Source: Flintibacter sp. KGMB00164
Lineage (GTDB): Bacteria > Bacillota > Clostridia > Oscillospirales > Oscillospiraceae
Length of the DNA: 64,000 nucleotides
Direction: 5' to 3'
Assembly (NCBI RefSeq): GCF_008727735.1
Contig: NZ_CP044227.1
Coordinates: forward strand, 1,922,001-1,986,000
Positions 29,264 to 57,622 of the stretch are shown in pieces. Below the pieces are notes generated by a model that was not told where the DNA came from, ran no database searches, and was given only the letters and a program-made list of their open reading frames with translations. Both the position numbers and the translations under genes were made by a program. Numbering within the stretch: the first letter of the stretch is position 1; every line of letters starts with the position of its first letter.

Positions 29264-30136
29264 TCAAACCTGGAAAAAGCTCTTGATGGTAATGAGCTTT
29301 CCTTGGGAGACCCGACTCAAAGCCAGAAACTCTCCTGCCTCACTGTATACCCGATACTCCCCGGCAGGGGGCGCATCAGGCAGCACCAGTGTCATGCCGT
29401 TGCGCACCTTTTTCTCTGCCGCAGGTTTCAGGATCAGCACAGGGCGGCCGGCAAAGTAGGCATCCACCCCCAGCAGCAGGCTCGCGGGATCCTCAGCCTG
29501 GAGTACCTGCTCCAGAGGCAGGGCGTCCTCCAAGGTAAAACCGGCCGCCATGGTCCGCCGCAGGGAGTACATGGTTCCTCCGCATCCCAGGGCCTGGCCA
29601 ATGTCGTGGCACAGAGTACGCACATAGGTCCCCTTGGAGCAGCGCACCCGGATAAGAAAGTCGGTGGCGCTCTCCTGGCCCTCCACCTCCAGGGAGTGGA
29701 TGGTGATGGCCCGGGGCTTGCGCTCCACCTCACGGCCCTTTCGGGCCAATTCATACAGCTTTTTCCCGTTTACCTTAATGGCGGAGTACATGGGTGGCAG
29801 CTGCTGAATTTCGCCCCAGAAGGGGGCCAGCGCCGCCTCCAATTCTTCCCGAGTCACTGAGACGGGATGCTCCTCCAGCACCCGGCCTGAGGTGTCCTGA
29901 GTGTCGGTGACGGTGCCCAGCCGCAGACCGGCCAGGTACTCCTTGTCCCCCTCACTGGCAAACTCCACTGCCCGGGTTGCCCGGCCTACAAATACCGGCA
30001 GCACGCCGGTAGCCATAGGGTCCAGGGTTCCGGCATGACCGATCCGCTTTTCGTGGAACAGCCCCCGAAGCTTGGCGCACACATCCATAGATGTCCAGTC
30101 CTGTGGCTTATCAATCACAATAATTCCATTAGGCAT
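29264..30136 (-). CDS. truB: tRNA pseudouridine(55) synthase
   Basis: The 290-residue enzyme makes pseudouridine at position 55 of tRNAs. The catalytic aspartate is D39 in RIGHAGTLDPMATG. KVNGKKLYELARKGREV near 121 and SKGTYVRTL near 174 are also typical. The ATG at 30136 lies 7 bases after AGGGGGG. The open frame extends 50 codons upstream, but that is not homologous to TruB. A diverged second copy of its first 44 bases lies 172 bp upstream and forms a leader ORF that ends inside this start region. Confidence 0.95.
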   Translation of the reverse strand: MPNGIIVIDKPQDWTSMDVCAKLRGLFHEKRIGHAGTLDPMATGVLPVFVGRATRAVEFASEGDKEYLAGLRLGTVTDTQDTSGRVLEEHPVSVTREELEAALAPFWGEIQQLPPMYSAIKVNGKKLYELARKGREVERKPRAITIHSLEVEGQESATDFLIRVRCSKGTYVRTLCHDIGQALGCGGTMYSLRRTMAAGFTLEDALPLEQVLQAEDPASLLLGVDAYFAGRPVLILKPAAEKKVRNGMTLVLPDAPPAGEYRVYSEAGEFLALSRVSQGKLITIKSFFQV

Positions 30137-30308
30137 AGCAGGCCCCCCTTTCCTCGCGGCGCAGCCCAGCAAAGCGGGTGCGACGCGAAAAGGAGGAGCC
30201 GCACGCCTGGATAAGCCCCTTTGCCTTGGCGAAGGGGCGTTCCAACAGGGCGTGCTCCGACGCCGTCCAATCCTGGGGTTTATCAATCACAATGATTCCG
30301 TTTGGCAT
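30129..30308 (-). pseudogene. Duplicated 5' end of truB, now a 59-codon leader ORF
   Basis: Bases 30265-30308 repeat the first 44 bases of truB with 38 identities. All six differences are at third codon positions and silent, so both copies encode the same first 14 residues. After TGGAC the match stops and 128 bp of hairpin-rich sequence follows, including GCCCCTT...AAGGGGC. The ORF starts with GGGAGG upstream, stays open through the insert and stops 8 bases inside truB, a coupling-like overlap. It is most likely the remnant of a displaced truB; a role as a translated leader is possible. Confidence 0.8.
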
Positions 30309-30319
30309 GGGTCCTCCCT

Positions 30320-31282
30320 TTACTTGCCCTGGCTCTGCACCTGGCGGATGGCCTCCACCAGCACCTTCCGGGTATAGGCGGGGTCGCCCTCCACGGTGGC
30401 TCCGGCCGCGGCAGCATGTCCGCCGCCGCCCAGAATGGCACACACCGCGCTGGCGTTGAGTTCACCGGGCTCGGTGCGCAGAGAGATTTTGCACACGCCG
30501 GGGCGCAGCTCCCGGATGGTAACCCCAGTGTGGACCCCCTCTACCCCGCCCACAAAGGCGGAAATGTCGTCCAGGTCCTCCTCTTTCGCTTCCACCTGGG
30601 CAATCATGTCCAGGGTCAGGGTAACAATGGCCAGTTTTCCCTCGTCCAGCACTTCCATACCGGAAGTGAGCATTCCCTCCAGCTTCAGTCGCTTGAGGGA
30701 GCGAGTACGGAAATGGCGGCGGTTGATGGGGTAAAAGTCGATTCCCGTCTCCAGCAGAGCGGCAGCCACCGCGTGGGTCGCCGGAGAGGTATTGGAATAG
30801 ACAAAGCAGCCGGTGTCGGTGGACACCGCCACGTAGAGGGGCAGAGCCACCGCCTGGCTCACGCTTCCCCATTGGCGGATCACATCGTACATCAGCTCGC
30901 CGCAGGCAGCCCGGCCTGCGTCCAGGCAGGTCTCCTTGGCAAAAAACTCCTGAGAAGGGTGGTGGTCAAAGGCCAGGTCCACCTTCTCCAGATAGCACTG
31001 GGCATTCTCCGGGAACAGCCCCCGGGCCGCCATGTCTACGCTGACCACCTTCTTAGGCTGGTATCCCTCAGGAGCCAGCAGGCCCTCCAGATAGGGGGCA
31101 AAGATGGCGGTGAGCTCCGGGTTGGGCAGGACATAAGCCTCCTTTCCCTGCTCCCGCAGGGCGGTACAAAGGGCGGCGGCACAGCCCACCGTGTCCCCGT
31201 CTGGGCGCACATGGGTAAGAATCAGGTAACCGTCTCCCTCCAGCAGCCGCTGGGCGGCCTGCTCATAGGTCAGCGTGCTCAT
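30320..31282 (-). CDS. nrnA: DHH/DHHA1 bifunctional oligoribonuclease/pAp phosphatase (NrnA-like)
   Basis: The 320-residue protein has DHH-family motifs in order: THVRPDGDTVG near 23-33, VSVDMAARG near 82, the DHHPS motif near 109 and the C-terminal DHHA1 GGGGHAAAAG near 292. NrnA degrades short RNAs and converts pAp to AMP. The order rbfA-nrnA-truB is conserved in Firmicutes. It overlaps rbfA by 4 bases (ATGA). This gene and rbfA are bracketed by duplicated ends of truB and infB, which suggests the pair has a different recent origin from its flanks. Confidence 0.93.
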   Translation of the reverse strand: MSTLTYEQAAQRLLEGDGYLILTHVRPDGDTVGCAAALCTALREQGKEAYVLPNPELTAIFAPYLEGLLAPEGYQPKKVVSVDMAARGLFPENAQCYLEKVDLAFDHHPSQEFFAKETCLDAGRAACGELMYDVIRQWGSVSQAVALPLYVAVSTDTGCFVYSNTSPATHAVAAALLETGIDFYPINRRHFRTRSLKRLKLEGMLTSGMEVLDEGKLAIVTLTLDMIAQVEAKEEDLDDISAFVGGVEGVHTGVTIRELRPGVCKISLRTEPGELNASAVCAILGGGGHAAAAGATVEGDPAYTRKVLVEAIRQVQSQGK

Positions 31283-31671
31283 TCCTCGTCCTCCTGGTCC
31301 TCACCGTAGTGGTTGTCGGGGTTCACCGGCTTGACCACGTTGGGGTCCCGCAGCATGCTGAGGATGTGGGCGCCCTTGTCGATGGAATCGTCGGGGACGA
31401 AGGACAGCTGGGGGGTGTTGCGCAGGTTCAAAGTGCGGCCCAGCTCCCGGCGCAGATAGCCGCCCGCCGACTTCAGGCCCTTGAGCACCTGGGCCTCATT
31501 GGACTTGTCCAATACACTGATGTGGACCTTGGCATATTTCAGATCCGGTGTGGTCTCCACCGCCGTCACAGAAATCATCCCGGTCACCCGGGGATCTTTT
31601 ACCGTGGGGATCAGGGAAGACAGCTCCCGCTGGATCTCCTCGTTGATACGGCCGATACGATTGGAAGCCAT
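31279..31671 (-). CDS. rbfA: 30S ribosome-binding factor A
   Basis: The 130-residue KH-like protein assists late 30S subunit maturation. It has RIGRINEEIQRELSSLI at the start, DPRVTGMISVTAVE near 26-39, and FVPDDSIDKGAHI near 91-103, all typical. An acidic tail (DNHYGEDQEDEE) extends the usual length slightly. RBS AAGGAGGAG precedes the ATG. A terminator-like hairpin and an infB fragment lie just upstream. Confidence 0.95.
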   Translation of the reverse strand: MASNRIGRINEEIQRELSSLIPTVKDPRVTGMISVTAVETTPDLKYAKVHISVLDKSNEAQVLKGLKSAGGYLRRELGRTLNLRNTPQLSFVPDDSIDKGAHILSMLRDPNVVKPVNPDNHYGEDQEDEE

Positions 31672-31691
31672 AAAAACTCCTCCTTATAGTC

Positions 31692-31722
31692 AAAACAGGG
31701 CGGGCGAAAACGCCCGCCCTGT
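31692..31722 (-). terminator. Hairpin with short T-run upstream of rbfA
   Basis: ACAGGGCGGGCG and its 12-bp complement with a TTTT loop are followed by only four T residues. It may act as a weak terminator or attenuator between the infB fragment and rbfA, which is odd inside an operon. Confidence 0.55.
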
Positions 31723-31741
31723 CGTTGGGTCAAATTATCTT

Positions 31742-31827
31742 TTAAACTTCAATCTGCTCCATCACGAAGGCCTCGATGATGTCGCCTTCCTTGATGTCCT
31801 GGAACTTCTCAAAGGTGATACCGCACT
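31742..31827 (-). pseudogene. Duplicated 3' end of infB (27 codons plus stop)
   Basis: This 86-bp segment matches the last 86 bases of the intact infB at 31972-32057 with 81 identities. The encoded 27 C-terminal residues are identical; all five differences are silent third-position changes, all in the final 14 codons. The segment has the natural neighbour (rbfA) downstream and no infB upstream. It is best read as the tail of an infB that was displaced by the copy now upstream. Confidence 0.88.
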
Positions 31828-31971
31828 TCCCCACGGGATGTTCCATCCCGCGTGGACCCCTTGATTTCAAATGCTCGGGCGAAGTGAATTCGCCCTGCGC
31901 AAATCTCAGCCTGCGGCTTCGATTTTACGCGCCAAAAGGCGCGCCCCGCTGCGCGGGGTACTCGCGCGGTA
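31828..31971. repeat. 144-bp hairpin array between infB and its duplicated tail
   Basis: Five stem-loops occur in a row: GGATG/CATCC inside CCACG/CGTGG, GGGCGAA/TTCGCCC with loop GTGAA, AAATC..AGCC/GGCT..GATTT with loop TGC, CGCGCC/GGCGCG with loop AAAA, and CCCCGC/GCGGGG with loop TGC. No coding sequence, transposase or clear terminal repeats are visible. It resembles REP- or MITE-type intergenic elements, but I cannot assign it to a family. Confidence 0.65.
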
Positions 31972-34386
31972 TTATACCTCGATCTGCTCCATCACAAAGG
32001 CCTCGATGATATCGCCTTCCTTGATGTCCTGGAACTTCTCAAAGGTGATACCGCACTCGTAGCCGGCGGCAACCTCCTTCACGCTGTCCTTGAAGCGCTG
32101 CAGGGAGGCAATGGAGCCGTCATAGATAACGATATTGTCACGCAGCAGACGCATCTGGGCGTTACGCTGCATCTTGCCGTCCAGCACGTAGCAGCCGGCC
32201 ACCATGCCCACGCCGGTGATGCGGAACACGTTGCGCACCTCGGCGCGGCCCAGGTCCACTTCCTTGAACTTGGGAGCCAGCATGCCCTTCATAGCCGCCT
32301 CGATCTCGTTGATGGCGTCGTAGATGACCCGGTACATCCGCATATCCACCTTCATCCGGGCGGCGCTCTCCTTGGCGTTGGCGTCGGGGCGGACGTTGAA
32401 GCCCACGATGATGGCCCCGGAGGTACTCGCCAGCATGACGTCGCTCTCGTTGATGGCGCCCACGGCGCAGTGGATGACCCGCACCCGGACCTCCTCGTTG
32501 GAGATCTTCTCCAGGGAGGACTTCACCGCCTCGGCGGAGCCCTGCACGTCGGCCTTGACGATGATGTTCAGGTTCTTCATCTCACCGGCCTGGATCTGGC
32601 TGAACAGATCCTCCAGAGTGACCTTGCCCACGTTGCTGTTCATGCTGCTCTTCTGCTCTGCCTTGCGCTGCTCGGCCAGCTCCCGGGCCATGCGCTCGTC
32701 GGCCACAGCGTGGAAGTCATCGCCGGCCTCAGGCACTTCGCCCATACCGATGATCTCCACGGGGACGGAGGGGCCGGCCTCGGTGACCTTCTGGCCCTTG
32801 TCGTTGGTCATGGCGCGGACACGGCCCACGGCGGTGCCGGCAATGATCACGTCGCCCTGATGCAGGGTACCGTTCTGCACCAGCAGGGTGGCCACAGGGC
32901 CGCGGCCCTTGTCCAGCCGGGCCTCGATGACGGCACCGTGGGCAGAGCGGTTGGGGTTGGCCTTCAACTCCCGCATCTCAGCGGTGAGGACCACCATGTC
33001 CAGCAGGTTGTCAATGCCCTCGCCGGTCTTGGCGGAGATGGGGCAGATAATGGTGTCGCCGCCCCACTCCTCGGGCACCAGGGAGTACTCGGTGAGCTGC
33101 TGCTTGATGCGCTCGGGGTTGGCGGTGGGTTTATCCATCTTGTTGATGGCCACGATCACGGGGATCTCGGCGGCCTTGGCGTGGTTGATGGACTCCACGG
33201 TCTGGGGCATGATGCCGTCGTCAGCGGCCACCACCAGGATGGCTACGTCGGTGACCATGGCGCCGCGGGCACGCATGGCGGTAAAGGCCTCGTGGCCGGG
33301 GGTGTCCAGGAAGGTGACGGGGCTGCCATTCACATCCACCTGATAGGCGCCGATGTGCTGGGTAATGCCGCCGGCCTCGCCGGAAACCACGTTGGCGTGG
33401 CGGATATAGTCCAGCAGAGAGGTCTTGCCGTGGTCGACGTGGCCCATGACCACCACAACGGGGGCGCGGGGGATCAGATCCTCTTCCTTGTCCTCGGTGG
33501 TGTCGATGAGCTTCTCCTCGATGGTGACAACGACTTCCTTCTCCACCTTGCAGCCCAGCTCCATAGCAACCAAGGCGGCGGTGTCGTAGTCGATGATCTC
33601 GCTGAGGGAGGCCATGACGCCCATCTTCATCAGGGTCTTGACCACCTCGGCGCCGGTCTTCTTCATGCGGCTGGCCAGCTCGCCCACGCCGATCTCGTCA
33701 GGGATCATCACCTTCAGCGGAGCCTTCTTGGCAATCTCCAGCTGCAGACGGCGCAGACGATCCTGCTCCTCCTGCTTACGCTTGTTGCCGGGACCCTGCT
33801 GACGGCCGCGCTGACGCTGTGCGTTGCGGTTCTGGAACTTCTCCTTGCCGCCCCGGTCCTGCTGACGCTGGTCGGTGAAGGACTCCAGACGCTCGTCATA
33901 CTTATCCAGATTCACCGCGCCGCCGCCGCGGGTATCCACCACCTTCTTGGTAGGCACACGGCTGGAGGGCTGAGACACGGTCTGCTGGCTCTGCTGCGCC
34001 TGGGGCTTATGGGCCGCCTGCTGCTGGCCCTGCTGGGGCCGGGCCTGGGCATTGCCGCCCTTGTTCTGCTGCTGGGCGGGCTTGGGCTGTCCGGCGGGCT
34101 TACCCTGCTGGACGGGCTTGCTCTGGGCGGCCTTGGGGGCCTCCGCCTTGGCAGCGGCGGGCTCGTGGTACACATCCTCATAGATGGACTGGATGGAGTC
34201 CACCTGATTGTGCTGGGTGAGATATTCAAACACCAGGGACAGCTCCTGGTCAGTCAGGGGCTGCATGTGGTTCTTGGGCGGATGCCCATACTGAGTCAGG
34301 ATGTCCATGACCTCCTTGGACTGGAGCTCCTTGGACCCCTTCTTAAAATCCTTGGCCACCTTGTGGATGGGATATTTGATCATCAT
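31972..34386 (-). CDS. infB: Translation initiation factor IF-2
   Basis: The 804-residue GTPase places initiator tRNA on the ribosome. An IF2_N domain opens the protein ([11 protein letters not shown]), a low-complexity Gln/Ala/Lys-rich linker spans about 80-190, a second IF2_N segment follows near 215, and the G domain has [16 protein letters not shown] near 312, DTPGHEAF near 362 and NKMD near 416. Domains II-IV complete a normal-length protein. The ATG at 34386 follows GAGGTGG. A silent-site-diverged duplicate of its 3' end lies 144 bp downstream. Confidence 0.97.
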
Positions 34387-34407
34387 ATTCGGGAGCCACC
34401 TCGTTTC

Positions 34408-35022
34408 TTAGGGTTTGTGCCGGAATGTTCCGGACAGCTTGCGGCCGCCTGGGCCGGGTCGATGCTTCTGGCCCGGGCGCGGGCTTCCGGACCGGGGAGA
34501 ACGTGTTTCCGGCGCGCCGGAGGACTCCCCTTTGCCTTTGCGCTGCCCACTGGGAGCGGCGTTTTTCTTCTGGGCGGGGTTTGGTACCGCCCAGGGCTTT
34601 TTCTTTCCGTTTTGCAGGTTTTTCTCGTGCTGGCGCTTCTCCTTCTGCCGCTGAAGCACCCGGTCCGCCTTCTGCCGCAGCTGCTGCGCGGCAGGGCCGT
34701 AGCGCTCCGGGTCCCGGGCGGCCAGCTTCTCGGTCACCGCCGCGGCAAATCCCGCGTCGGTAATGGCCAGCATGGCGCAGGAGCCGCGGCCAAGGTGGAA
34801 GCCCAGTTCCGCTTTGGAGTAGGGCACTTCCAGCCACAGGACGTTGCCTGCCTCGCCAAAGTGGGCGGCCCGGCGGTTGGTGTTGGCCGCCGCGTCGCTG
34901 GCCAGCAGCACCAGGCGGGCCTGACGGGCCCGGCAGACGGCGCCCACCGGCTCCTCGCCGATCTCCAGCCGTCCCGCCTTACGGGCCAGGCCCAGCAGGT
35001 GGAGAATGGGATCATTGGGCAT
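34408..35022 (-). CDS. L7Ae-family RNA-binding protein (YlxQ-like) with long basic tail
   Basis: The first 100 residues are an L7Ae/L30e domain (LLGLARKAGRLEIGEEPV, then ARLVLLASDAAANTNRR), as in YlxQ, which sits at this place in Firmicute nusA-infB operons. The remaining 100 residues are a Lys/Arg/Gln/Pro/Ser-rich, probably disordered tail that ordinary YlxQ (about 100 residues) lacks. It overlaps ylxR by 11 bases. A role in ribosome or RNA binding is likely by family; the tail could add non-specific RNA contact. Confidence 0.85.
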   Translation of the reverse strand: MPNDPILHLLGLARKAGRLEIGEEPVGAVCRARQARLVLLASDAAANTNRRAAHFGEAGNVLWLEVPYSKAELGFHLGRGSCAMLAITDAGFAAAVTEKLAARDPERYGPAAQQLRQKADRVLQRQKEKRQHEKNLQNGKKKPWAVPNPAQKKNAAPSGQRKGKGESSGAPETRSPRSGSPRPGQKHRPGPGGRKLSGTFRHKP

Positions 35023-35290
35023 CCTGGGGCACCTCCTTCATCTGTTCTTCCAGCGCCTGATATACTTCCTCAGGAAGGGGGGCAGAAAAGGCCCGCTCCA
35101 GCGCCTTGGACTTTTTGGCCTTAGCCAGACAGGCGGGATTGGGACACACATAGGCCCCCCGCCCAGGCAGCTTTCCCCGGAAATCCAGGGACACCTGCCC
35201 CTCCGGAGAACGGACCACCCGGATCAGTTCCTTTTTCGGCTTCATCTCCCGGCAGCCAACACACTGGCGCATGGGGATCTTCTTGGGCAC
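35012..35290 (-). CDS. ylxR: YlxR/RnpM family RNA-binding protein
   Basis: The 92-residue DUF448 protein has the family motif [20 protein letters not shown] near residues 7-26 and [16 protein letters not shown] near 43-58. YlxR (RnpM) has been linked to RNase P in Bacillus. The GTG at 35290 is chosen because AAAGGGG lies 8 bases upstream; an ATG six codons earlier has no ribosome site. It lies between nusA and ylxQ as in most Firmicutes. Confidence 0.92.
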
Positions 35291-35325
35291 AGATCTCACC
35301 CCTTTCATGACAAAATTGATATGGA

Positions 35326-36504
35326 TTATTCTTCCTCGCTCTCCACAGGCTCCTCAGCCACCAGAGCGTCGTCCTCCAGCTCCTCCTGCTGGATCTCCTC
35401 GATGGGCTCCAGGGGAGCGGAGGCGGGCTTAATGTCGATCTTCCAGCCGGTGAGCTTGGCGGCCAGGCGGGCGTTCTGGCCCTCCTTACCGATGGCCAGA
35501 GACAGCTGGTCGTCGGGCACTACCACGCGGCAGCTCTTGCCGTCGGGCAGAGGCTCCACGCTGACCACGTCGGCGGGAGAGAGCGCGGCGGCAATGTACT
35601 CGGCGGGATCGTCGGAGTACTTGATGATGTCCATCTTCTCGCCCTTGAGCTCCTCCACGATGGTGTTGACACGCTGACCGCGGGGGCCAACACAGGCGCC
35701 GATGGGATCTACGTTGGGGTCAGCGGACCAGACCGCCAGCTTGGTGCGGGAGCCGGCCTCACGGGCGATGGAGCGGATCTCCACGGTGCCGTCGTAGATC
35801 TCAGGCACTTCCAGCTCAAAGAGGCGCTTGACCAGACCGGGGTGGGTGCGGGAGATAATGACCTGGGGGCCCTTGGTGGCCTTGCGCACCTCCACCATGT
35901 ACACCTTCAGGCGCTGGCCCTCCACGTAGCTCTCACCCTTGACCTGCTCATTGGCGCCCAGATAGGCGTCGGTGAACTCAGAGCCGGAACTGATGCGCAG
36001 GGTGACCGCCCCGTTGCGGGGATCGATGCGGGTAACCACGCCGGTGAGCAGCTCGTGCTCCTTGGAGGAGAACTCGTCGTACACCATGCCCTGCTCGGCC
36101 TCGCGGATGCCCTGGATGATGACCTGGCGGGCAGTCTGAGCGGCAATGCGGCCAAAGCTCTTGGGCTTGACCTCAATGCGCACCACATCGCCCAGCTCGG
36201 CCCGGGGCAGGGCGGCCTTGGCCTCCTGCAGGCTGATCTCGGTGTTGGGATTGTCCACGACCTCTACTACATCCTTCTTCAGGAACATGCGGACGGTGTT
36301 GGTCTCGGGGTTGGCGTCCACAATCAGGTTATCGCCCACGCCCTCATGGTCCCGGCGGTACGCCGACACCAGAGCCTGGGTGATCTTCTCCATCATATAA
36401 CCGGGCTTGATGCCCTTCTCCTGCTCGATCTGAGCAATGGCGGCAAAAAATTCCTGTCCATCCAGCTCGTTGCTATTGACCTTTTTCGTTGTTCTCTTAG
36501 CCAC
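35326..36504 (-). CDS. nusA: Transcription termination/antitermination factor NusA
   Basis: The 392-residue protein binds RNA polymerase and nascent RNA. Its N-terminal polymerase-binding domain (about 1-130), S1 domain (about 140-205) and two KH domains (about 210-360, including [21 protein letters not shown] in part and [19 protein letters not shown]) are present. An acidic tail replaces the C-terminal repeats found in proteobacteria, as usual in Firmicutes. It starts 21 bp after rimP with GGAGGAGA upstream. Confidence 0.96.
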
Positions 36505-36525
36505 GTCGGTCTCCTCCTACTATTC

Positions 36526-36981
36526 TCAGAAGCGGGGGTACAGCCGTACCAGCGCCAATTCTTTCTTCTCAAATTTCATGGGCGCGCCGCCCACATTCAG
36601 GGTCACGTCTCCGTCCTCATAGGACTCCAGCAGCCCCACATAGTCCTTCCGGCCGTCCCGGGCCCGGTAGAGTTTGACCTCCACCTCAGCGCCCTGGAAC
36701 TGGGCAAAGTGCTCCGGCTTTTTCAGTGCCCGGTCCGCTCCGGCAGAGGACACCTCCAGGGTGTAGCTGCCCTCAATGGGGTCGGCCTCGTCCAGAGCAT
36801 CGGACAGGGGGCGGGAGACCGCCTCGCAGTCGTTGATGGACACGCCCCCATCCTTATCAATATAGAAGCGGAGATACCACTCCCCTGCCTCCTTTACATA
36901 TTCCACATCCCACAGGGAGCAGCCCGCCGCCTCCACGAAGGGCTGGGCAAGCTGGGCCGCCATCTCGGTCACTTTTGCCAT
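36526..36981 (-). CDS. rimP: Ribosome maturation factor RimP
   Basis: The 151-residue protein aids 30S assembly. It shows the RimP pattern: AQPFVEAAGCSLWDVEYVKE near 14-33, LRFYIDKDGGVSINDCEAVSR near 41-61 (in part) and YTLEVSSAGADRAL near 77. The ATG at 36981 follows TTTGGAGG by 8 bases; the upstream open frame lacks a site. It is the first gene of the operon that runs to ribF. Confidence 0.94.
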   Translation of the reverse strand: MAKVTEMAAQLAQPFVEAAGCSLWDVEYVKEAGEWYLRFYIDKDGGVSINDCEAVSRPLSDALDEADPIEGSYTLEVSSAGADRALKKPEHFAQFQGAEVEVKLYRARDGRKDYVGLLESYEDGDVTLNVGGAPMKFEKKELALVRLYPRF

Positions 36982-37075: not shown

Positions 37076-37103
37076 TAGCCAATACTACCATAATTCTTTA
37101 CTT

Positions 37104-40144: not shown

Positions 40145-40422
40145 AAAAAAACAGCCCCTTATCCCACATGGGACAAGAGCCTGACTCCTGCGATACCACC
40201 CAAATTGACGTTTTCACGTCCGCTCGCTTCACGCGCCATCACGCGTGCCCGATGGATAACGGGTGGGTCCCCGTCGGCATCTACTAGGTTGCCCGTTCAA
40301 GCCGCCCTCGAAAGACCATTCACTCGGCCGCGCCCCGCCCTGATCTCACCACCCAGGACTCTCTTTGGGTTTGCTGCACCGGCTACTCTTCTTTCTCATA
40401 GGTTTGGATTGGATTTACTTGT
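40145..40422 (-). promoter_or_regulatory. T-box riboswitch (tryptophan) controlling the trpXYZ-like importer
   Basis: On the minus strand the leader shows Stem I with GAAAG/CTTTC around an AGTAG motif, the specifier loop with GAA then TGG at 40316-40318 (Trp), a T-box core GGGTGGTATCGCAGG (40187-40201) and a terminator with 15-bp arms (40152-40183) plus a T-run. Low charged tRNA-Trp should raise importer expression. Confidence 0.93.
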
Positions 40423-41563: not shown

Positions 41564-41576
41564 AGAGGGAGCAAAA

Positions 41577-41600
41577 TTACTCCTCGATCTCGATAACAGC
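41577..41600 (-). pseudogene. Duplicated 3' end of tuf (7 codons plus stop)
   Basis: The last 24 bases of tuf (41671-41694) recur here with 23 identities; the single difference is silent. The encoded residues AVIEIEE and the stop are the same. Upstream codons no longer match. It has its own terminator. It may be the remnant of a displaced or second tuf gene. The match is short, so chance cannot be fully excluded, but the pattern matches that at infB. Confidence 0.65.
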
Positions 41601-41654: not shown

Positions 41655-41670
41655 CATAGGGAGTTGTTAA

Positions 41671-42873
<1,203 letters not shown>

Positions 42874-47024: not shown

Positions 47025-47062
47025 AAAAAGAAGGACACGACTTACGTCGTGTCCTTCTTTTT
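47025..47062. terminator. Bidirectional terminator between ferredoxin and tRNA-Gly
   Basis: AAAAAGAAGGACACGAC and its 17-bp complement with a TTAC loop. It ends the tRNA transcript on the minus strand and can also stop the ferredoxin message. Confidence 0.93.
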
Positions 47063-47137
47063 GGAGCGAGTGACGAGGCTCGAACTCGCTACCTCCACCT
47101 TGGCAAGGTGGCGCTCTACCAGATGAGCTACACTCGC
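47062..47137 (-). tRNA. tRNA-Gly (GCC), downstream copy
   Basis: On the minus strand GCGAGTG pairs with CACTCGC, the anticodon loop is TTGCCAA (anticodon GCC), the T-loop has GTTCGAGCC, and TCCA at the 3' end encodes CCA. The length is 76 nt. It is identical to the upstream copy. Confidence 0.96.
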
Positions 47138-47142
47138 AAAAT

Positions 47143-47170: not shown

Positions 47171-47184
47171 TGCATGATTGCACT

Positions 47185-47260
47185 TGGAGCGAGTGACGAG
47201 GCTCGAACTCGCTACCTCCACCTTGGCAAGGTGGCGCTCTACCAGATGAGCTACACTCGC
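47185..47260 (-). tRNA. tRNA-Gly (GCC), promoter-proximal copy
   Basis: It has the same 76-nt sequence and features as the copy at 47062-47137: a GCGAGTG/CACTCGC acceptor stem, anticodon GCC and an encoded CCA. It lies 14 bp after its promoter's -10 box. Confidence 0.96.
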
Positions 47261-47274
47261 AAGCGACAATCGGT

Positions 47275-49940: not shown

Positions 49941-49987
49941 AGAAAACCTCCTTACTCCTTCTCACAGTAACACAAAACACTATGCGC

Positions 49988-52240
49988 TTACTTACTCTCC
50001 GGCTCCAGCAGGGACATCTGAGTCTCTCCCCGGTCCTCCTCCCGCAGCAGCGCGCCGGCGATGGGCAGGCTGCGGGCACGGTAGCGGGACAGGTTGACAA
50101 TGGGGGTGTCCGCCAAAGGCTTGGCATCGGTCACCACCCGCTTGGGCTTAAGGGCCATCACATTGACGCCCTGGGTGGTGCGGGTAGTTTTGGGAGCCAG
50201 GGCGGCGGTGTGGAAGATCATGCACCGGCCGTCGCTGGAATAGACCGCCATCTCCAGATCCTCCCGCAGCAGCAGGGCGGACACCAGGGGCGACTTATCC
50301 GAATAGGCTCCGGTGAGCTTTTTCCGCCGGGTCTGGGTCTGGTAGGCGGACAGCTCCACCCGGGCCACCTTGCCGTTTTCAAAGAAGAACAGCAACTGTC
50401 CGGAGTAATCTCCGGAGATACAGGCCCACAGCACCCGCTCCTCCGCCTCCATGGCCAGCTTGGTGGGCAGGTAGTCGCCCAGAACACTGGCCTTGCTGTC
50501 GTCGAACTCACTCAGGCGGGTTTTGTAGCACTGCTGCTTGTCGGTAAACACCAGCAGCTCGTCCCGGTTTGTGGCCTCCCACTGGAGGAAGGGACCATCC
50601 CCCTCCTTATACTTCTGGTCACTGGCCATGCGCAGGGACTGTGGCGTGATCTTTTTCAGATACCCCTCCCGGGAAAGGAACAGGTTGACCGGGTAGTCGG
50701 GCGTCTCGTCCTCCTGGGGCTCCTCCTCCAGCATGTGCTCGTAGACGATGTCGGTACGCCGGGGCTGGGCGTACTTCTTCTTCACGTCGGTAAGCTCCTT
50801 GGTGATGATCTTACGGATGCGCTTGGGATCGTTCACCGTGGCCTGGAGGTCGGCGATCTCTCCCTCCAGTGCCTCCACCTCCTGGGTGCGCTTGAGGATA
50901 TACTCCTTATTGATGTTGCGCAGGCGAATGTCTGCCACATATTCGGCCTGGATCTGGTCGATGCCAAACCCGATCATCAGGTTGGGCACCACCTCCGCGT
51001 CCTCCTCCGTCTCCCGGATGATGGCGATGGCCCGGTCGATGTCCAGCAGGATCCGCCGCAGACCTTTCAGCAGGTGCAGCTTATCCTCCTTCTTCTTCAT
51101 CTCATGGTACACCCGGCGGCGCACACAGTCCATACGCCAGGCGGTCCACTCCTCCAGAATTTCCCGCACTCCCATCACCCGGGGCATGCCCGCAATGAGG
51201 ATGTTGAAGTTGCAGGACTGGGAATCCATGAGCGGGGTGGCCCGGAACAGCTTGGCCATCAGCTTGTCCGGGTCGGTGCCCCGTTTGAGGTCAATGGTCA
51301 GCTTCAGACCGGAGAGGTCAGTCTCGTCCCGCATGTCGGCAATTTCCTTGATCTTGCCCGCCTTGATGAGCTCCGCCACCTTGTCCATAATGGCTTCGGA
51401 GGTGGTGGAGTAGGGAATCTCATAGATCTCGATGAGATTTTCACTTTTCAGATAGCGCCACTTGGAACGCACTTTAAAGGAGCCGCGGCCCGTGCGGTAA
51501 ATTTCTCCCAGCGCCTTCTCATCATAGATGAGCTCGCCGCCGGTGGGCAGATCAGGCCCCTTCAGGGTGGCCATCAGGTCGCACTCCGGATCCTTCAGAT
51601 AGGCGATGGTGGTATCGCACACCTCTCCCAGATTGAAGCCGCACAGGTTGCTGGCCATACCCACGGCGATGCCCTGGTTGGCGCTCACCAGCACGTTGGG
51701 GAAGGTGGTGGGCAGCAGGGTGGGCTCCTTCATCTTGCCGTCGTAGTTGTCCACAAAGTCCACGGTGTCCTGGTCGATGTCCCGGAACAGCTCGCCGCAG
51801 ATGGCGTCCAGGCGCACCTCGGTGTACCGGCTGGCCGCCCAGGCCATGTCCCGGGAGTACACCTTACCGAAGTTACCCTTGGAGTCCACAAAGGGGTGCA
51901 GCAGCGCCCCGTAGCCCCGGCTGAGGCGCACCATGGTGTCGTAGATGGCCGCGTCGCCGTGGGGATTGAGTTTCATGGTCTGCCCCACCACGTTGGCGCT
52001 CTTGGTCCGAGCCCCGCCCAGCAGCTTCATCTGGTACATGGTGTACAGGAGCTTGCGGTGGGAGGGCTTGAAGCCGTCGATCTCCGGGATGGCCCGGGAG
52101 ACGATGACGCTCATGGCGTAGGGCATATAGTTCAGTTCCAGCGTCTCAGTAATGGGCTGCTCCAGCACCTCGGCGTGCAGCCCCATGACGTTGGGGTTAT
52201 CGAATTTTTTCCCCTCCTGAGGGGTCTTCTTTTTTGCCAT
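49988..52240 (-). CDS. DNA gyrase/topoisomerase IV subunit A-type protein
   Basis: The 750-residue type IIA topoisomerase breakage-reunion subunit has the active-site Tyr139 in AASRYTEVRL, the PHGDAAIYDT loop near 93-102 and a long coiled-coil gate region (about 410-490). The C-terminal domain has weak beta-propeller-like repeats. Alanine 97 occupies the position of gyrase Ser83, a quinolone contact, while Asp101 matches Asp87. The gene is paired with its B subunit and lacks the GyrA box as far as I can see, so a topoisomerase IV-like role is favoured over gyrase. Confidence 0.88.
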   Translation of the reverse strand: MAKKKTPQEGKKFDNPNVMGLHAEVLEQPITETLELNYMPYAMSVIVSRAIPEIDGFKPSHRKLLYTMYQMKLLGGARTKSANVVGQTMKLNPHGDAAIYDTMVRLSRGYGALLHPFVDSKGNFGKVYSRDMAWAASRYTEVRLDAICGELFRDIDQDTVDFVDNYDGKMKEPTLLPTTFPNVLVSANQGIAVGMASNLCGFNLGEVCDTTIAYLKDPECDLMATLKGPDLPTGGELIYDEKALGEIYRTGRGSFKVRSKWRYLKSENLIEIYEIPYSTTSEAIMDKVAELIKAGKIKEIADMRDETDLSGLKLTIDLKRGTDPDKLMAKLFRATPLMDSQSCNFNILIAGMPRVMGVREILEEWTAWRMDCVRRRVYHEMKKKEDKLHLLKGLRRILLDIDRAIAIIRETEEDAEVVPNLMIGFGIDQIQAEYVADIRLRNINKEYILKRTQEVEALEGEIADLQATVNDPKRIRKIITKELTDVKKKYAQPRRTDIVYEHMLEEEPQEDETPDYPVNLFLSREGYLKKITPQSLRMASDQKYKEGDGPFLQWEATNRDELLVFTDKQQCYKTRLSEFDDSKASVLGDYLPTKLAMEAEERVLWACISGDYSGQLLFFFENGKVARVELSAYQTQTRRKKLTGAYSDKSPLVSALLLREDLEMAVYSSDGRCMIFHTAALAPKTTRTTQGVNVMALKPKRVVTDAKPLADTPIVNLSRYRARSLPIAGALLREEDRGETQMSLLEPESK

Positions 52241-52255
52241 TGGATTCCTTCCTTA

Positions 52256-54241
52256 TCACGAAATATCCGCCAGTTCCAGATATTTATAGCCGTTGTCCGC
52301 AATGTGGTTCTTCCGGCCCGCCAGGTCATCGCCCAGCAGCAGGTCAAAGACCTGAGCGGTGCGCTCCACGTCCTCCGGCATGACCTTGATGAGGCGGCGG
52401 GTGGCCGGGTTCATGGTGGTCAGCCACATCATGTCCGGCTCGTTCTCGCCCAGGCCCTTGGAGCGCTGGATGTCGTACTTCTTTCCCTCCAGAGTGGCCA
52501 CAATGTCATTCTTCTCCTTATCGGAGTAGGCAAACCAGGTTTTCTCCTTGCAGGTAATCTCATAGAGGGGAGATTCCGCGATATATACATAGCCCTGCTG
52601 GATGAGGGTGGGAGTCAGGCGGTAAAGCATAGTGAGCACCAGAGTACGGATCTGAAATCCATCCACGTCAGCATCGGTACAGATGACGATTTTGTTCCAG
52701 CGCAGGTTGGCCAGATCGAAGGTGGCCAGATCCTTGGCCCGCTTGTCGTGGACCTCCACGCCGCAGCCCAGCACCTTTAACAGGTCGGTAATGATGTCGC
52801 TCTTGAAGATCTTGCCGTAGTCGGCCTTCAAACAGTTGAGGATTTTTCCTCGGATGGGCATGATGGCCTGGAACTCTCCGTCCCGGGCCAGCTTGACGCT
52901 GCCCAGAGCGGAGTCACCCTCTACGATATACAGCTCGCTGCGCTCGATGTCCTTGGTGCGGCAGGGTACAAACTTCTGCACCCGGTTGGAGATATCCATG
53001 GAGCCGGTGAGCTTCTTTTTGATGTTCAGCCGGGTACGCTCAGCAGTCTCCCGGGAGCGCTTATTCACCAGCACCTGCTCGGCGATCTTCTGGGCATCGA
53101 AGGGATTCTCGATAAAGTAGACCTCCAGCTGAGAGCGGAGGAAATCGGTCATGGCCTCCTGAACAAACTTGTTGTTGATGGCCTTTTTGGTCTGGTTCTC
53201 ATAGGATGTCTGGGTGGAGAAGTTGTTGGAGACCAGCACCAGGGCGTCCTGCACATCGTTAAAGGTGATCTTGGCCTCGTTTTTCTGGTACTTCCCCTGC
53301 TGCTTGAGGTAGGCGTCAATGGCGGAGACGAAAGCGGACTTCATGGCCTTCTCCGGAGAGCCGCCGTGCTCCAGCCAGGAGGAGTTGTGGTAGTGCTCCA
53401 CCAGGGACACCCGGTTGGAGAAGCAGAAGGATACGCTCAGCTTTACCTTATATTCCGGCTTGTCGTCCCGGTCCCGGCCTTTCCGCTCGGTCTGCCAAAA
53501 CACAGGCTGGGTGAGGGGATCCTCCCCCGCCAGCTCGGTGACATAGTCCAGGATTCCGTTTTCATACTGAAAATCGGTGGTGATAAACTTGCCCGGAGTG
53601 GTCTCCTCCTTAAAGCGGAAGGTCACCCCTGCGTTGACCACTGCCTGGCGCTTCATCACGTCGGTGTAGTAGTCCACCGGGATGTCGATGTCGGTAAAGA
53701 CCTCCAGATCGGGCTTCCAGCGGAAGGTGGAGCCGGTCTTCTTACCCCGGTCGGTGGGCTCCTTCTTCAGTCCGCCCACATTTTCGCCCTTTTCAAAGTG
53801 GAGGGAGTACTTAAACCCGTCCCGCCAGATGGTAGCGTCAAAGAACTCACTGGCATACTGGGTGGCGCAGGAGCCCAGGCCGTTGAGACCAAGGGAATAT
53901 TCATAGTTGTCCCCGTCTCCGCCGTACTTGCCGCCGGCGTACAGCTCGCAGAACACCAGCTCCCAGTTGTACTTCTGCTCCTTCTCATTCCAGTCCACCG
54001 GACAGCCCCGGCCCTGGTCCTCCACCTGGATGGATTTGTCCAAAAAGCGGGTGACGGTGATCAGGCTGCCGTGGCCCTCCCGGGCCTCGTCGATAGCGTT
54101 GGACATAATTTCAAAGACGGCATGCTCGCATCCCTCCAGCCCGTCCGAGCCGAAAATAACACCGGGCCGCTTCCGTACCCGGTCGGCCCCCTTCAGGGCG
54201 GAAATGGATTCGTTGCCGTAGCTTGCTTTTTTCTGAGCCAT
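52256..54241 (-). CDS. DNA gyrase/topoisomerase IV subunit B-type protein
   Basis: The 661-residue ATPase subunit has the GHKL ATP site (EIMSNAIDEAREG near 43, DQGRGCPVD near 73, GLNGLGSC near 116), a transducer domain and the Toprim domain (YIVEGDSALGSVKLARD near 435, CTDADVDGFQIRTL near 530). The final PXXW-type tail is present. The ATG at 54241 follows GAGGACGAAAAAGG; an earlier in-frame ATG at 54286 overlaps the promoter. It starts the five-gene minus-strand operon ending in the lipoprotein. Confidence 0.9.
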   Translation of the reverse strand: MAQKKASYGNESISALKGADRVRKRPGVIFGSDGLEGCEHAVFEIMSNAIDEAREGHGSLITVTRFLDKSIQVEDQGRGCPVDWNEKEQKYNWELVFCELYAGGKYGGDGDNYEYSLGLNGLGSCATQYASEFFDATIWRDGFKYSLHFEKGENVGGLKKEPTDRGKKTGSTFRWKPDLEVFTDIDIPVDYYTDVMKRQAVVNAGVTFRFKEETTPGKFITTDFQYENGILDYVTELAGEDPLTQPVFWQTERKGRDRDDKPEYKVKLSVSFCFSNRVSLVEHYHNSSWLEHGGSPEKAMKSAFVSAIDAYLKQQGKYQKNEAKITFNDVQDALVLVSNNFSTQTSYENQTKKAINNKFVQEAMTDFLRSQLEVYFIENPFDAQKIAEQVLVNKRSRETAERTRLNIKKKLTGSMDISNRVQKFVPCRTKDIERSELYIVEGDSALGSVKLARDGEFQAIMPIRGKILNCLKADYGKIFKSDIITDLLKVLGCGVEVHDKRAKDLATFDLANLRWNKIVICTDADVDGFQIRTLVLTMLYRLTPTLIQQGYVYIAESPLYEITCKEKTWFAYSDKEKNDIVATLEGKKYDIQRSKGLGENEPDMMWLTTMNPATRRLIKVMPEDVERTAQVFDLLLGDDLAGRKNHIADNGYKYLELADIS

Positions 54242-54287
54242 ACCTTTTTCGTCCTCACAATAAAAAAATCCACAATGTAACAGCATA

Positions 54288-54317
54288 ATGATACTCCATT
54301 TCCCCGGAAAAAGTCAA
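54288..54317 (-). promoter_or_regulatory. Promoter for the topoisomerase operon
   Basis: TTGACT (54312-54317), 18 bp, TATCAT (54288-54293) on the minus strand. Confidence 0.5.
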
Positions 54318-54394
54318 GGAATGGGCGTCATGCTGTGTTTCTCGTATAAAATTCTCCATTCCACCCAAACTGTATTCCAAAAGGGGGAGAATTC

Positions 54395-54850
54395 ATGGGC
54401 TGTTTTGAAGTATTGGAATCGGGAGAGGGAATTCAGGATGAGATCGCCCGGCGGCTCCAGGACACCGGTGCCCTGGCCTGCGGCTGGTCCAGCCCCAGCC
54501 GCCCCGCCCTGCTGATCATCTCTCCCCGGGTGGCCGCCCAAACGCCCCACCTGGAGGGCGGGTGCCGCACCGTGCTGCTGCCTGGGGATGCCCCGGCGGA
54601 GCACTGGCAGCTCCAGGCGGCCAGCGCCGTCAGCTATGGCCCCGGTCCCCGGGACACCCTCACTCTGTCCAGCCGGGAGGGAAATCGGCTGTGGCTGGCC
54701 CTGCAGCGGGAGGTGGTCACCGTTCAGGGGCAGGTGGTGGAGCGGCAGGAGTTTCCCTTTCGTTCCACGGCGGCCCAGCCCACCCAGGCCGCCCTGGCGG
54801 TGGCGGGGGCGCTGCTTTTGCTGGGAGTTCGCCCAGAGCATCTGAGTTAG
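54395..54850 (+). CDS. Hypothetical protein
   Basis: This 151-residue protein has no domain I recognise. It looks soluble and alpha/beta, with a short hydrophobic alanine-rich stretch near the C-terminus (AALAVAGALLLLGV). Codon use matches neighbouring genes, and GGGGGAGA lies before the ATG, so it is probably real. It is divergent from the topoisomerase operon and precedes the copper operon, but has no evident link to either. Confidence 0.6.
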   Translation: MGCFEVLESGEGIQDEIARRLQDTGALACGWSSPSRPALLIISPRVAAQTPHLEGGCRTVLLPGDAPAEHWQLQAASAVSYGPGPRDTLTLSSREGNRLWLALQREVVTVQGQVVERQEFPFRSTAAQPTQAALAVAGALLLLGVRPEHLS

Positions 54851-54866
54851 CCTTTGCTATTTCCTA

Positions 54867-54895
54867 CTTGACAAGCAGGGATTTATGGACTACAA
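54867..54895 (+). promoter_or_regulatory. Promoter for the copA-csoR operon
   Basis: TTGACA (54867-54872), 17 bp, TACAAT (54890-54895). Confidence 0.8.
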
Positions 54896-54900
54896 TCAAG

Positions 54901-54924
54901 ATACCCCCCACCCCAGGGGGGTGT
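54901..54924. promoter_or_regulatory. CsoR operator
   Basis: ATACCCCCC and GGGGGGTGT flank an ACCCCA centre. This GC-rich pseudo-palindrome at the transcript start is typical of CsoR sites, and csoR is the last gene of the operon. Copper binding to CsoR would release it. Confidence 0.75.
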
Positions 54925-54950
54925 CATCCATAAGAAAGCAGGTGAACCCT

Positions 54951-55055
54951 TTGAAACAGACCTTTCCGATGCCCGACATGACCTGTTCCGCCTGCTTCAC
55001 ATCTCGTCCAAACCACATTGCCTGTGCGAAGATAAACAAGAGGTACATGAAATGA
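54951..55055 (+). pseudogene. Duplicated 5' end of copA, now a 34-codon leader ORF
   Basis: A TTG start with AGGTGA upstream begins a frame coding MKQTFPMPDMTCSAC, against MKQTFNVTGMTCSAC for copA itself. The DNA copies differ mainly at third positions except for four central codons. After the CxxC motif the match ends, and the frame runs on to a TGA that overlaps the copA ATG (ATGA). Two readings fit: a scar of a displaced copA, or a translated leader peptide with cysteines at 12, 15 and 25 and a histidine at 22. Confidence 0.72.
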
Positions 55056-57622
55056 AGCAAACATTCAACGTAACCGGTATGACCTGCTCCGCTTGCTCCG
55101 CCCATGTGGAAAAGGCAGTCAACAAGCTGGAGGCCGTCTCCAAGGCCGAGGTCAGCCTGATGACCAACTCCATGTCGGTGGAGTACGACTCCAACGCCAT
55201 CAGCCCCCAGGACATCATCCACGCTGTGGAACAGGCGGGCTACGGTGCCTCTCTCCCCCAGAAAGACAAATCCGCTCCCCTTCCCGATCCCAACAGCCAG
55301 TTAGCTCATGAACTGGGAGCCATGAAGCGGCGCCTCATCTGGTCCTTTGTCTTTCTCATTCCCCTCTTTTACATCTCCATGGGCCACATGCTGGGCGCTC
55401 CCCTTCCCTCCTTCTTGGTGGGCATGGAAAACGCGCTGGCCTTCGGCCTCACTCAGCTGCTGCTCACCCTGCCTATCTTATATGTCAATGATACTTACTA
55501 TAAGGTCGGCTTCAAAACCCTGTGGCACCGCGCCCCCAACATGGACTCCCTTATCGCCGTAGGCTCGGCGGCGGCAGTGACTTACGGTATCTTCGCCATC
55601 TACCAAATCGGCTATGGCCTGGGCCACAGCGACATGGAGCTGGTGGAGCGCTACCACATGGACCTGTACTTTGAGTCCGCCGGCATGATCCTCACCCTCA
55701 TCACCCTGGGCAAGTTTTTGGAGAAGCGCTCCAAGGGAAAAACCTCCCAGGCCATCAACCGCCTGATGGATCTGGCCCCCAAGACCGCCCATGTTCTCCG
55801 GGACGGCGCAGAGGTGGAGATCCCCGTGGAGGAGGTCCGGGTAGGCGACCATATTGTGGTCCGGCCCGGTCAGTCCATCCCGGTAGACGGTGTGGTGGTG
55901 GAGGGCAGCTCCGCCGTAGACGAGTCCGCCCTCACCGGCGAGTCCCTCCCGGTGGACAAGGGACCTGGTGACAAGGTGGCTGCCGCGTCCATGAACCGCT
56001 CCGGCTCCTTCACCTTTGAGGCCCTGCGGGTTGGCGAGGATACCACCCTGGCCCAGATGATCCGCTTAGTGGAGGAGGCCGCCGCCTCCAAGGCTCCTAT
56101 CGCCAAGCTGGCCGATAAGGTGGCCGGAGTATTTGTCCCGGTGGTCATGGCTATCGCCGCCGTCACCGCCCTGGTGTGGTTCTTTGTGGGCGGCTATGAC
56201 GTGACAAAGGCCCTCACCGCCGGTGTGGCCGTGTTGGTCATCTCCTGCCCCTGTGCTCTGGGGCTGGCCACCCCCGTGGCCATCATGGTGGGTACCGGCA
56301 AGGGGGCCGAAAATGGTATCCTAATCAAATCCGCCGAGGCACTGGAGACCCTCCACAGCATCGACACGGTGGTGCTGGACAAGACCGGCACCCTCACCCA
56401 GGGCAAACCGGTGGTCACCGACATCCTCCCCGGTAACGAGACCGACGAGGCCGGACTTCTCACTCTGGCCGCTTGCCTAGAGGCCCCCTCAGAGCATCCC
56501 CTGGCTACCGCCATTGTAGAGGAGAGTCGCCGCCGCGGCCTATCCTCCGCCGCGGTCACCAACTTTACCGCCGTCCATGGCCGGGGTGTGCGAGCCAATC
56601 TGAAGGGCCATCCTTTCCTGGCAGGCAATCAGGCCATGATGGAGGAGGCAGGCGTGTCCTTGGGCGACTTTCCCCAGAAAGCGGAGAAACTGGCCGCCCA
56701 GGGCAAGACGCCGTTGTACTTCGCTGACGAGAAGCAGGTGCTGGGCATCATTGCCGTGGCTGACACCCCCAAGCCCACCAGTGCCCAAGCGGTGTCCTCC
56801 TTCCGGCAACTGGGTCTGGACGTGGTCATGCTTACCGGCGACAACCAGCGCACTGCCGACGCTATCGGCAAGGAGCTGGGGGTCACCCAGGTCATGGCCC
56901 AGGTGCTTCCCCAGGACAAGGAGGCCAAGGTGCGCCAGCTCCAGGAGCAGGGCAAAAAGGTAGCCATGGTGGGCGACGGCATCAACGATGCCCCCGCTCT
57001 GGCCCGGGCCGACGTGGGTCTGGCCATTGGAGCAGGTACCGATGTGGCCATCGAGAGCGCCGATATCGTGCTGATGAAGTCCGACCTGCTGGACGCCGCC
57101 GCCGCGGTGGAGCTCAGCCGGGCCACCATCCGTAACATCAAAGAAAACCTGTTCTGGGCTTTCTTTTACAATACCCTTGGCATCCCTCTGGCCGCCGGTG
57201 TATTCTACCATTGGACCCACTGGCAGCTTAACCCCATGTTTGCCGCCGCAGCTATGAGCCTGAGCTCCTTCTGCGTGGTGTCCAACGCCCTGCGGCTGCG
57301 TTTCTTTAAGAGCAAATTCCGTCCCGCTCCCTGCGCCGGAGCCTGTCCTGCGGAACAGCCGGAGTTCGACGAGTCCAACCAAATCAACGAGAAAAAAGGA
57401 GACGAACAAACCATGGAAAAGAAAATTCAGATCGAAGGCATGATGTGTCAGCACTGTGTGGCCCACGTGGAAAAGGCTCTCACCGCTCTTGGCGGGGTCA
57501 GTGCCGCCCAGGCCGACCTGGAGGGCAAGTGCGCTACTGTCACCCTGTCCGCTCCGGTCTCTGACGAGGAGCTCAAGGAGGCGGTCACCGCCGCCGGCTA
57601 CGAGGTGGTGGGCATCCAGTGA
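55052..57622 (+). CDS. copA: Copper-exporting P-type ATPase with C-terminal CopZ-like domain
   Basis: The 856-residue P1B ATPase pumps Cu(I) out of the cell. It has an N-terminal heavy-metal domain (MTCSAC, C12/C15), eight membrane helices, the CPC motif in SCPCALGLATPVA near 399, the phosphorylation site DKTGT near 444 and GDGINDAPAL near 643. After the last helix, a linker and a second heavy-metal domain (MMCQHC) form residues 788-856. Most bacterial CopA end before this, so it is a fusion with copZ; an internal start may release it. It overlaps csoR by 4 bases. Confidence 0.95.
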   Translation: MKQTFNVTGMTCSACSAHVEKAVNKLEAVSKAEVSLMTNSMSVEYDSNAISPQDIIHAVEQAGYGASLPQKDKSAPLPDPNSQLAHELGAMKRRLIWSFVFLIPLFYISMGHMLGAPLPSFLVGMENALAFGLTQLLLTLPILYVNDTYYKVGFKTLWHRAPNMDSLIAVGSAAAVTYGIFAIYQIGYGLGHSDMELVERYHMDLYFESAGMILTLITLGKFLEKRSKGKTSQAINRLMDLAPKTAHVLRDGAEVEIPVEEVRVGDHIVVRPGQSIPVDGVVVEGSSAVDESALTGESLPVDKGPGDKVAAASMNRSGSFTFEALRVGEDTTLAQMIRLVEEAAASKAPIAKLADKVAGVFVPVVMAIAAVTALVWFFVGGYDVTKALTAGVAVLVISCPCALGLATPVAIMVGTGKGAENGILIKSAEALETLHSIDTVVLDKTGTLTQGKPVVTDILPGNETDEAGLLTLAACLEAPSEHPLATAIVEESRRRGLSSAAVTNFTAVHGRGVRANLKGHPFLAGNQAMMEEAGVSLGDFPQKAEKLAAQGKTPLYFADEKQVLGIIAVADTPKPTSAQAVSSFRQLGLDVVMLTGDNQRTADAIGKELGVTQVMAQVLPQDKEAKVRQLQEQGKKVAMVGDGINDAPALARADVGLAIGAGTDVAIESADIVLMKSDLLDAAAAVELSRATIRNIKENLFWAFFYNTLGIPLAAGVFYHWTHWQLNPMFAAAAMSLSSFCVVSNALRLRFFKSKFRPAPCAGACPAEQPEFDESNQINEKKGDEQTMEKKIQIEGMMCQHCVAHVEKALTALGGVSAAQADLEGKCATVTLSAPVSDEELKEAVTAAGYEVVGIQ
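57413..57622 (+). CDS. copZ: Copper chaperone CopZ-like product from an internal copA start
   Basis: Inside copA, in the same frame, AAAAAAGGAG (57392-57401) is followed 11 bases later by ATG at 57413. Translation from it gives a 69-residue heavy-metal-associated protein (MEKKIQIEGMMCQHC...) that is a complete CopZ: CxxC in the first loop, a beta-alpha-beta-beta-alpha-beta layout and the C-terminal AAGYEVVGIQ. Independent translation is inferred from this site; the E. coli copA gene makes a chaperone from its own start by frameshifting, so dual products are known in this family. Confidence 0.5.
   Translation: MEKKIQIEGMMCQHCVAHVEKALTALGGVSAAQADLEGKCATVTLSAPVSDEELKEAVTAAGYEVVGIQ

Follow-up and report, generated by a model that had tools for sequence, protein, structure and literature searches.

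Small dispersed elements between duplicated gene ends in Flintibacter and its relatives, most of one family opening with a segment complementary to their target

The stretch of DNA analysed here (the window, 64,000 nucleotides (nt) at positions 1,922,001-1,986,000 of the single-contig, 2.92-Mb genome of Flintibacter sp. KGMB00164, NZ_CP044227.1) contains four genes, infB, truB, tuf and copA, each accompanied by a short second copy of one of its own ends. At infB, the two copies enclose an element of a family, family 1, that recurs in many relatives. The element is bordered on one side by a first copy of the gene end, which is joined to the gene and in sense copies mostly stops at the stop codon, and on the other side by a second copy, which is joined to the flank. 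In most family-1 copies the opening segment is complementary to the target in its unoccupied state and spans the insertion junction, and both copies of the gene end stay under coding constraint. Family 1 is probably address-guided, as judged from the match between elements and targets. A second family, found at truB, is less certain.

A preliminary description of the window had reported the four duplicated ends, and each of them is real, with lengths of 86 bp at infB, 44 bp at truB, 26 bp at tuf (24 bp had been claimed) and about 48 bp at copA (about 45 bp had been claimed). Its statement that all differences are silent in three of the cases was also confirmed, with five silent differences at infB (94% identity), five silent differences and no non-silent ones in the 12 codons examined at truB (86% identity) and a single silent difference at tuf, copA being the exception. 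Its treatment of the four cases as one kind does not hold, since infB and truB contain elements of separate families, the tuf copy is remnant-like and the copA copy is degraded. The names infB, truB, tuf, copA, lepA and aspS are based on NCBIfam matches (profile matches TIGR00487 for infB and TIGR00431 for TruB), and the remaining gene names were assigned by eye; copA matches the copper-type heavy-metal P-type ATPase subfamily with a score below the CopA equivalog cut-off.

When 60 relatives were searched with the infB region, the insert between the infB ends proved to be a repeat dispersed across the genus, as expected from the repeated process that had been proposed. The arrangement of infB end, insert and infB end occupies the same site in several species, with repeats of 86-70 nt in G000, G014, G018, G026 and G008, a further occurrence in G082 and repeats of 41-45 nt in two more; others possess a single infB end. 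The common insert motif that the preliminary description had called for exists, as the mid-element core motif of family 1 is present in 30 of the 61 genus genomes used for motif and enzyme counts, and the reversed pattern has no matches. The exact core pattern occurs in at least 120 stretches of GTDB genomes. Among the 80 matches listed, the named taxa are Flavonifractor, Pseudoflavonifractor, Intestinimonas, Dysosmobacter, Oscillibacter, Sporobacter, Oscillospiraceae and similar, the rest being named merely Clostridia, Clostridiales, Clostridium sp. or bacterium. The elements are non-coding, GC-rich by eye and mostly about 115-200 nt in size, and their ends vary by locus.

Two sets of family-1 copies were compiled, set one comprising 75 distinct copies (68 with full flanks) and set two 120 new distinct copies (99 with full flanks) after six identical to set one had been removed; in all element counts, copies at orthologous sites are non-independent events. 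Direct repeats flank 19 of the first 20 dispersed copies (27-202 nt, the longest within a tandem array), 54 of the 75 distinct copies of set one (among those with full flanks, 53 of 68; the repeat has a median length of 74.5 nt and the insert of 150.5 nt) and 66 of the 99 full-flank copies of set two (median repeat 57 nt). In both sets the repeats are mostly 20-110 bp long, and a random-position control gave repeats at 13 of 360 positions. The proposal of an element that is located at gene ends, the end of the gene itself staying complete, is supported. As judged by eye, several of the 15 full-flank copies of set one without a repeat adjoin transfer RNA (tRNA)-gene terminators, three lie in tandem arrays, and at two (L166 and L207) the gene is present and a second copy is lacking. 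The stop codon of the sense gene falls within 7 nt of the first-copy end in 40/53 copies of set one and 35/66 of set two, and within 15 nt in 43/53 and 48/66, respectively, the mirror control yielding 0 and 3. A few family-1 copies are antisense, with the gene start inside the repeat. The same genes, namely infB, lepA and aspS, are occupied in several species, and relatives with single-copy sites exist. An anticorrelation between repeat and insert length (r = -0.73), considered as the sign of a fixed mobile unit, was set aside because decay that shortens the detected repeat can yield much of it.

Most family-1 elements begin with the reverse complement of their target, the first-copy head being followed by the upstream tail. 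Local alignment scores of at least 10 were obtained for 41 of 53 elements with their own target versus 96 of 1030 comparisons with the targets of other copies in set one, and for 53 of 65 versus 131 of 1275 non-self pairs in set two; these counts overstate the number of events because of the non-independence of orthologous sites. The insertion junction is spanned in 39 of the 43 set-one copies whose address score is at least 9, and the target around the junction is mildly G-rich. The element is structured: in a 40-sequence alignment three helices show pairing in 96% of cells and two-sided change in 8 of 13 pairs, a covariation that exceeds 500 of 500 shuffles as well as slid controls. The 3' hairpin is hypervariable yet complementary, being kept in 108 of 120 copies, among which 99 different arms occur. 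A comparison of 14 loci and of 27 kb from the window (29-56 kb) with Rfam gave no family for the element, and neither group I nor group II introns were matched there at E<=1.

Variants of the family-1 arrangement were also encountered. In four loci (L098, aspS, encoding aspartate--tRNA ligase by NCBIfam; L158; L231; L253), repeat and element form tandem arrays with a spacing near 190-235 nt. Six loci (L084, L192, L195, L185, L188 and L203) carry a family-1 core variant with a different 3' part by the terminators of opposing tRNA genes, as read by eye. At L178, the element and then a gene-end copy (acetate kinase by eye) stand behind an unrelated gene, on a contig from a metagenome-assembled genome where a rearrangement is possible. 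The core motif is also present on ten viral-contig stretches (L328-L337).

The comparison of silent with non-silent changes that the preliminary description had proposed was carried out on both sets. In set one, the two gene-end copies are separated by 164.5 synonymous and 37.5 non-synonymous differences, a ratio of non-synonymous to synonymous rates (dN/dS) of 0.058, over 49 of 54 copies (a tandem artefact and four copies lacking a sense gene end were excluded), and in 53 of 66 copies of set two (13 excluded for lack of a sense gene end) the corresponding values are 127, 38 and 0.080. A dead second copy should gather more non-silent than silent changes. The stop of the second copy lies within three codons of that of the first in 46 of the 53 set-two copies. 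Measured against other genomes, amino-acid deviations number 9 on the first copy, 15 on the second and 26 assignable to neither, and silent deviations 93, 65 and 128. Second copies with an early stop or an altered end exist, for example at L209, L262, L276 and L287. Antisense family-1 copies at gene starts (L278, L241, L269 and L324) show mostly silent differences by eye, and the second copy at L309 has non-silent ones. In the 14 copies whose repeats have non-coding parts, these differ at 22/430 positions versus 26/245 third positions; omission of L176, a tandem artefact, and of L096, which is antisense, gives 10/310 versus 22/206. Translational read-through into the second copy was rejected as an explanation, as the element is no more open in the frame of the second copy than in others and the spacing is not a multiple of three (35/37/48 by remainder).

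The relatedness of the copies limits how they can have come together. In 30 of 36 same-gene comparisons with other sampled genomes, the two copies within a genome are mutually nearest, from which it follows that the host's own gene gave rise to the repeat or homogenised it, unless the repeat came from a closer unsampled strain. The preliminary description had proposed that the copies diverged as functional genes and were then united; the silent-dominated divergence agrees with the first part, and the joining of a foreign end is at odds with the nearest-neighbour result. The simple bringing together of foreign gene ends is weakened accordingly, closer unsampled donors being possible. Nor do scars of gene replacement by relatives' copies survive as written, while a milder exchange of alleles does: one-sided difference patterns at p<0.05 occur in 13 of 62 copies, an excess over chance that fits recombination with other alleles, and some gene ends travel together with the element. 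The infB end ...EEVER-stop adjoins the element in G026 and G008, with a similar end in G011, and the element-adjoining truB start has its first 14 nt in common between G000 and G001, and with G010 save for one base. Recent movement between species as a general rule is unsupported, as same-gene copies (122 pairs) diverge on average by 0.22 in the core and by 0.22 at third positions, 20 pairs falling below half.

At truB, the start of the gene is duplicated on either side of an element of family 2 that lies antisense to it. Across seven genomes, the two truB starts are separated by 18 silent and no non-silent changes in the 12 codons; in G010 there is one amino-acid difference at codon 2, outside the codons compared. 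Family 2 occurs at 51 places in 17 of 61 genomes, and its short motif, with one mismatch allowed, gave 41 places with flanks among the loci compiled here. Flanking repeats accompany 12 of these, 7 of them at truB. The lepA copy of the present genome resembles family 2 by eye.

We favour, with moderate confidence, an explanation in which miniature elements duplicate a gene end on insertion and the ends are later exchanged with relatives' alleles by recombination. The complementary segment of family 1 would serve as the address for insertion, the two strands would be opened tens of bases apart, thereby duplicating the gene end, and insertions elsewhere in the gene would break it and be lost. Homologous recombination or co-conversion would then exchange the copies with functional gene ends from other alleles, which would keep either copy from lying dead for long and give near-silent divergence. 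We prefer this explanation because silent-only divergence is seen also at the antisense truB element and because one-sided patterns are present. Several results weigh against it. Selection for survival explains why the repeat includes the stop codon and leaves unexplained why the first copy ends there. No repeat was detected at 33 of the 99 full-flank set-two copies, flanking repeats are found at just 12 of the 41 family-2 places, a clear address is present in only two of nine scored family-2 copies (L243 and L359), and none was found in any scored truB copy of family 2. Where the gene-end copies differ, the address matches the second better in nine cases and the first in four, with eight ties, which is not predicted. 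Copies at one gene are non-independent events, and the equal mean divergence of core and third positions means that fresh movement between species is not general. Finally, no mobilising enzyme was found in genome-wide searches for RVT_1 and Y1, neighbouring genes not having been scanned for recombinases. RVT_1 is present in 27 of 61 genomes (11/30 element-positive and 16/31 element-negative), and Y1_Tnp in 30 of 61, with none at E<=0.001 in the element-bearing G010 and G018 among others. A reverse transcriptase or Y1 transposase as partner is unsupported by any positive association with the element across the 61 genomes, many of which are incomplete, and a trans-acting or lost enzyme is possible.

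The constraint on both gene-end copies, read alone, would imply that the first copy and the element are removed from RNA. In such an intron-like scheme, which we consider unlikely, the first copy plus element (about 229 nt) would leave the messenger RNA (mRNA) and the gene would be joined to the second copy; unspliced mRNA would yield the same protein from the first copy, translation stopping ahead of the folded element, and the address would act as a splint for the joined ends, its segments standing in the order of a group I intron internal guide sequence. The low dN/dS in both sets, the distribution of amino-acid changes (15 on the second copy, 9 on the first, 26 assignable to neither), the proximity of the two stops in 46 of 53 copies, the ending of the first copy at a stop codon, the closer fit of the address to the second copy and the lack of a more open element frame are all consistent with this scheme. 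The same silent pattern at truB counts against it because an RNA structure specified by one strand would have no effect on the opposite strand. Nor are gene and element without a second copy (L166 and L207), second copies with early stops or altered ends, one-sided mosaics in 13 of 62 copies, or the lack of group I and II matches in the loci scanned expected of it. Were it nevertheless correct, and from the sequences we give this little weight, these would be RNA-acting elements with a spare gene end, in which either copy could be joined and insertion would be harmless whether or not the element was removed, with a programmable address of about 13-23 nt for the ends of many housekeeping genes.

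Distinctly unlikely, in our estimation, is that the address is a by-product, the 3' end folding back at insertion, copying the junction and leaving an inverted copy while targeting remains unguided: in those copies that were read by eye, the inverted copy of the target junction immediately follows the first copy, as such a process would produce, but no priming microhomology was seen by eye in the few copies inspected. We regard it as very improbable that unrelated small tandem duplications or assembly artefacts account for the four genes. Such an origin is contradicted at infB and truB, given a core, structure, address and recurrence common to many genomes in two collections; it is still possible at tuf, where copy and terminator resemble a remnant 94-nt unit, and at copA, where the copy is degraded.

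Guide-like segments and gene-end duplications are each known from other systems. The internal guide sequence of group I introns pairs with both sides of the junction, and the segment described here does likewise and in the same order; the present elements, known here from DNA alone, differ in their size of about 115-200 nt, in the repeated gene end and in the lack of any group I match (E<=1) among the scanned loci. IS110 bridge RNA and the omega RNA of IscB/TnpB are guide-carrying mobile systems that share a short guide-like segment by a structured scaffold, but not the long gene-end duplication, and here no associated nuclease or transposase was identified and no Rfam match obtained. Some integrative elements restore the host gene end; in common with them, the host gene end is complete and a second copy stands at the far side, whereas the present elements are far too small to encode an integrase. 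Miniature inverted-repeat transposable elements (MITEs) duplicate a few to about 15 bp of target. As in MITEs, family 1 is a dispersed, short, non-coding repeat; the short target duplication is absent, the medians being 74.5 and 57 nt in sets one and two. Bacterial MITEs are described in a review as AT-rich with terminal inverted repeats of about 4-30 bp (PMC10969869). Measured against that description, the present elements are similarly short, non-coding and dispersed with target direct repeats at their flanks, and differ in having repeats of up to 110 bp, in being GC-rich by eye, in their position at gene ends and, mostly, in a target-complementary segment (PMC10969869). A search of PMC returned no recognised description of such elements; preprints (bioRxiv) and most subscription papers were beyond its reach, and prior publication is possible. 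Within these searches, the long gene-end duplication with a target-matching segment fits none of the families tested or compared here. Whether by insertion and recombination or by removal from RNA, the elements explain the recurrent partial duplications at conserved gene ends in the Flavonifractor group. If the address is used for targeting, common gut bacteria would possess a compact targeting system that is reprogrammed naturally; if it is the second gene end that is used, the elements would be bacterial mobile DNA rendered harmless in a new manner. The target-matching segment may point to a so far undescribed mode of insertion-site choice.

The remaining two window cases are less complete. 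At tuf, 41575-41600 duplicates 41669-41694, and the copy looks like a remnant, forming with the terminator a 94-nt unit. In two relatives tuf carries a fuller arrangement with a variant core by eye: a repeat of 87 nt, an insert of 172 nt and a 14-nt address match in G010 (L105), and a repeat of 46 nt, an insert of 211 nt and a weaker address match in G008 (L111). The two terminator copies at L105 differ in the hairpin loop alone (TTTT versus AAAT), and their coding part is identical. At copA, the copy at 54951-54998 differs from 55052-55099 by several amino-acid changes, as judged by eye, and a relative (G014) has a single copy. A scan for gene-end pairs (repeats of at least 24 nt spaced 60-700 nt) was applied to the window and to 20 stretches of the same genome (400 kb of 2.92 Mb). 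First-order Markov shuffles, one each for the window and the 20 stretches, gave no pairs, and lepA (L035), elsewhere in the genome, is the sole pair inspected and confirmed as a gene-end copy in the 400-kb sample, further pairs (L042, L043, L048 and L051) lying outside that inspection. Pairs are denser in the window than in the sample, the window having been selected for these very cases. Features of the window are collected in the table.

Table 1. Gene-end copies and elements in the window (positions counted from its first nucleotide)
Feature	Position	Strand	Evidence or remark
truB start joined to gene body	30093..30136	-	repeat scan; NCBIfam TIGR00431
Family-2 element, 128 nt, lying antisense to truB	30137..30264	+	no address detected
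Second truB start, 44 nt, joined to native upstream region	30265..30308	-	single copy in G014
Second infB copy, 86 nt of 3' end including a separate stop codon, joined to native downstream terminator region	31742..31827	-	
Family-1 element at infB, 144 nt	31828..31971	-	dispersed repeat in relatives; no Rfam match in stretch
Family-1 invariant core motif	31872..31899	-	sole match in window; 0 in 100 shuffles
Putative address segment, complementary to infB target across insertion junction	31952..31973 (approximate)	-	local score 11 (L002), imperfect here
First infB copy, gene-joined 3' end terminating at stop codon	31972..32057	-	repeat comparison and NCBIfam TIGR00487
Second tuf 3' end, 26 nt	41575..41600	-	remnant-like; 68 nt between copies without element core
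Degraded second copA start	54951..54998	+	copper-type heavy-metal P-type ATPase by NCBIfam

Three further features of the window were noted. Collagen-like coding repeats are arranged in tandem at 23886-24468, a T-box leader at 40166-40408 scores barely over the Rfam gathering threshold, and two identical tRNA genes occupy 47061-47139 and 47184-47262, 123 bp apart.

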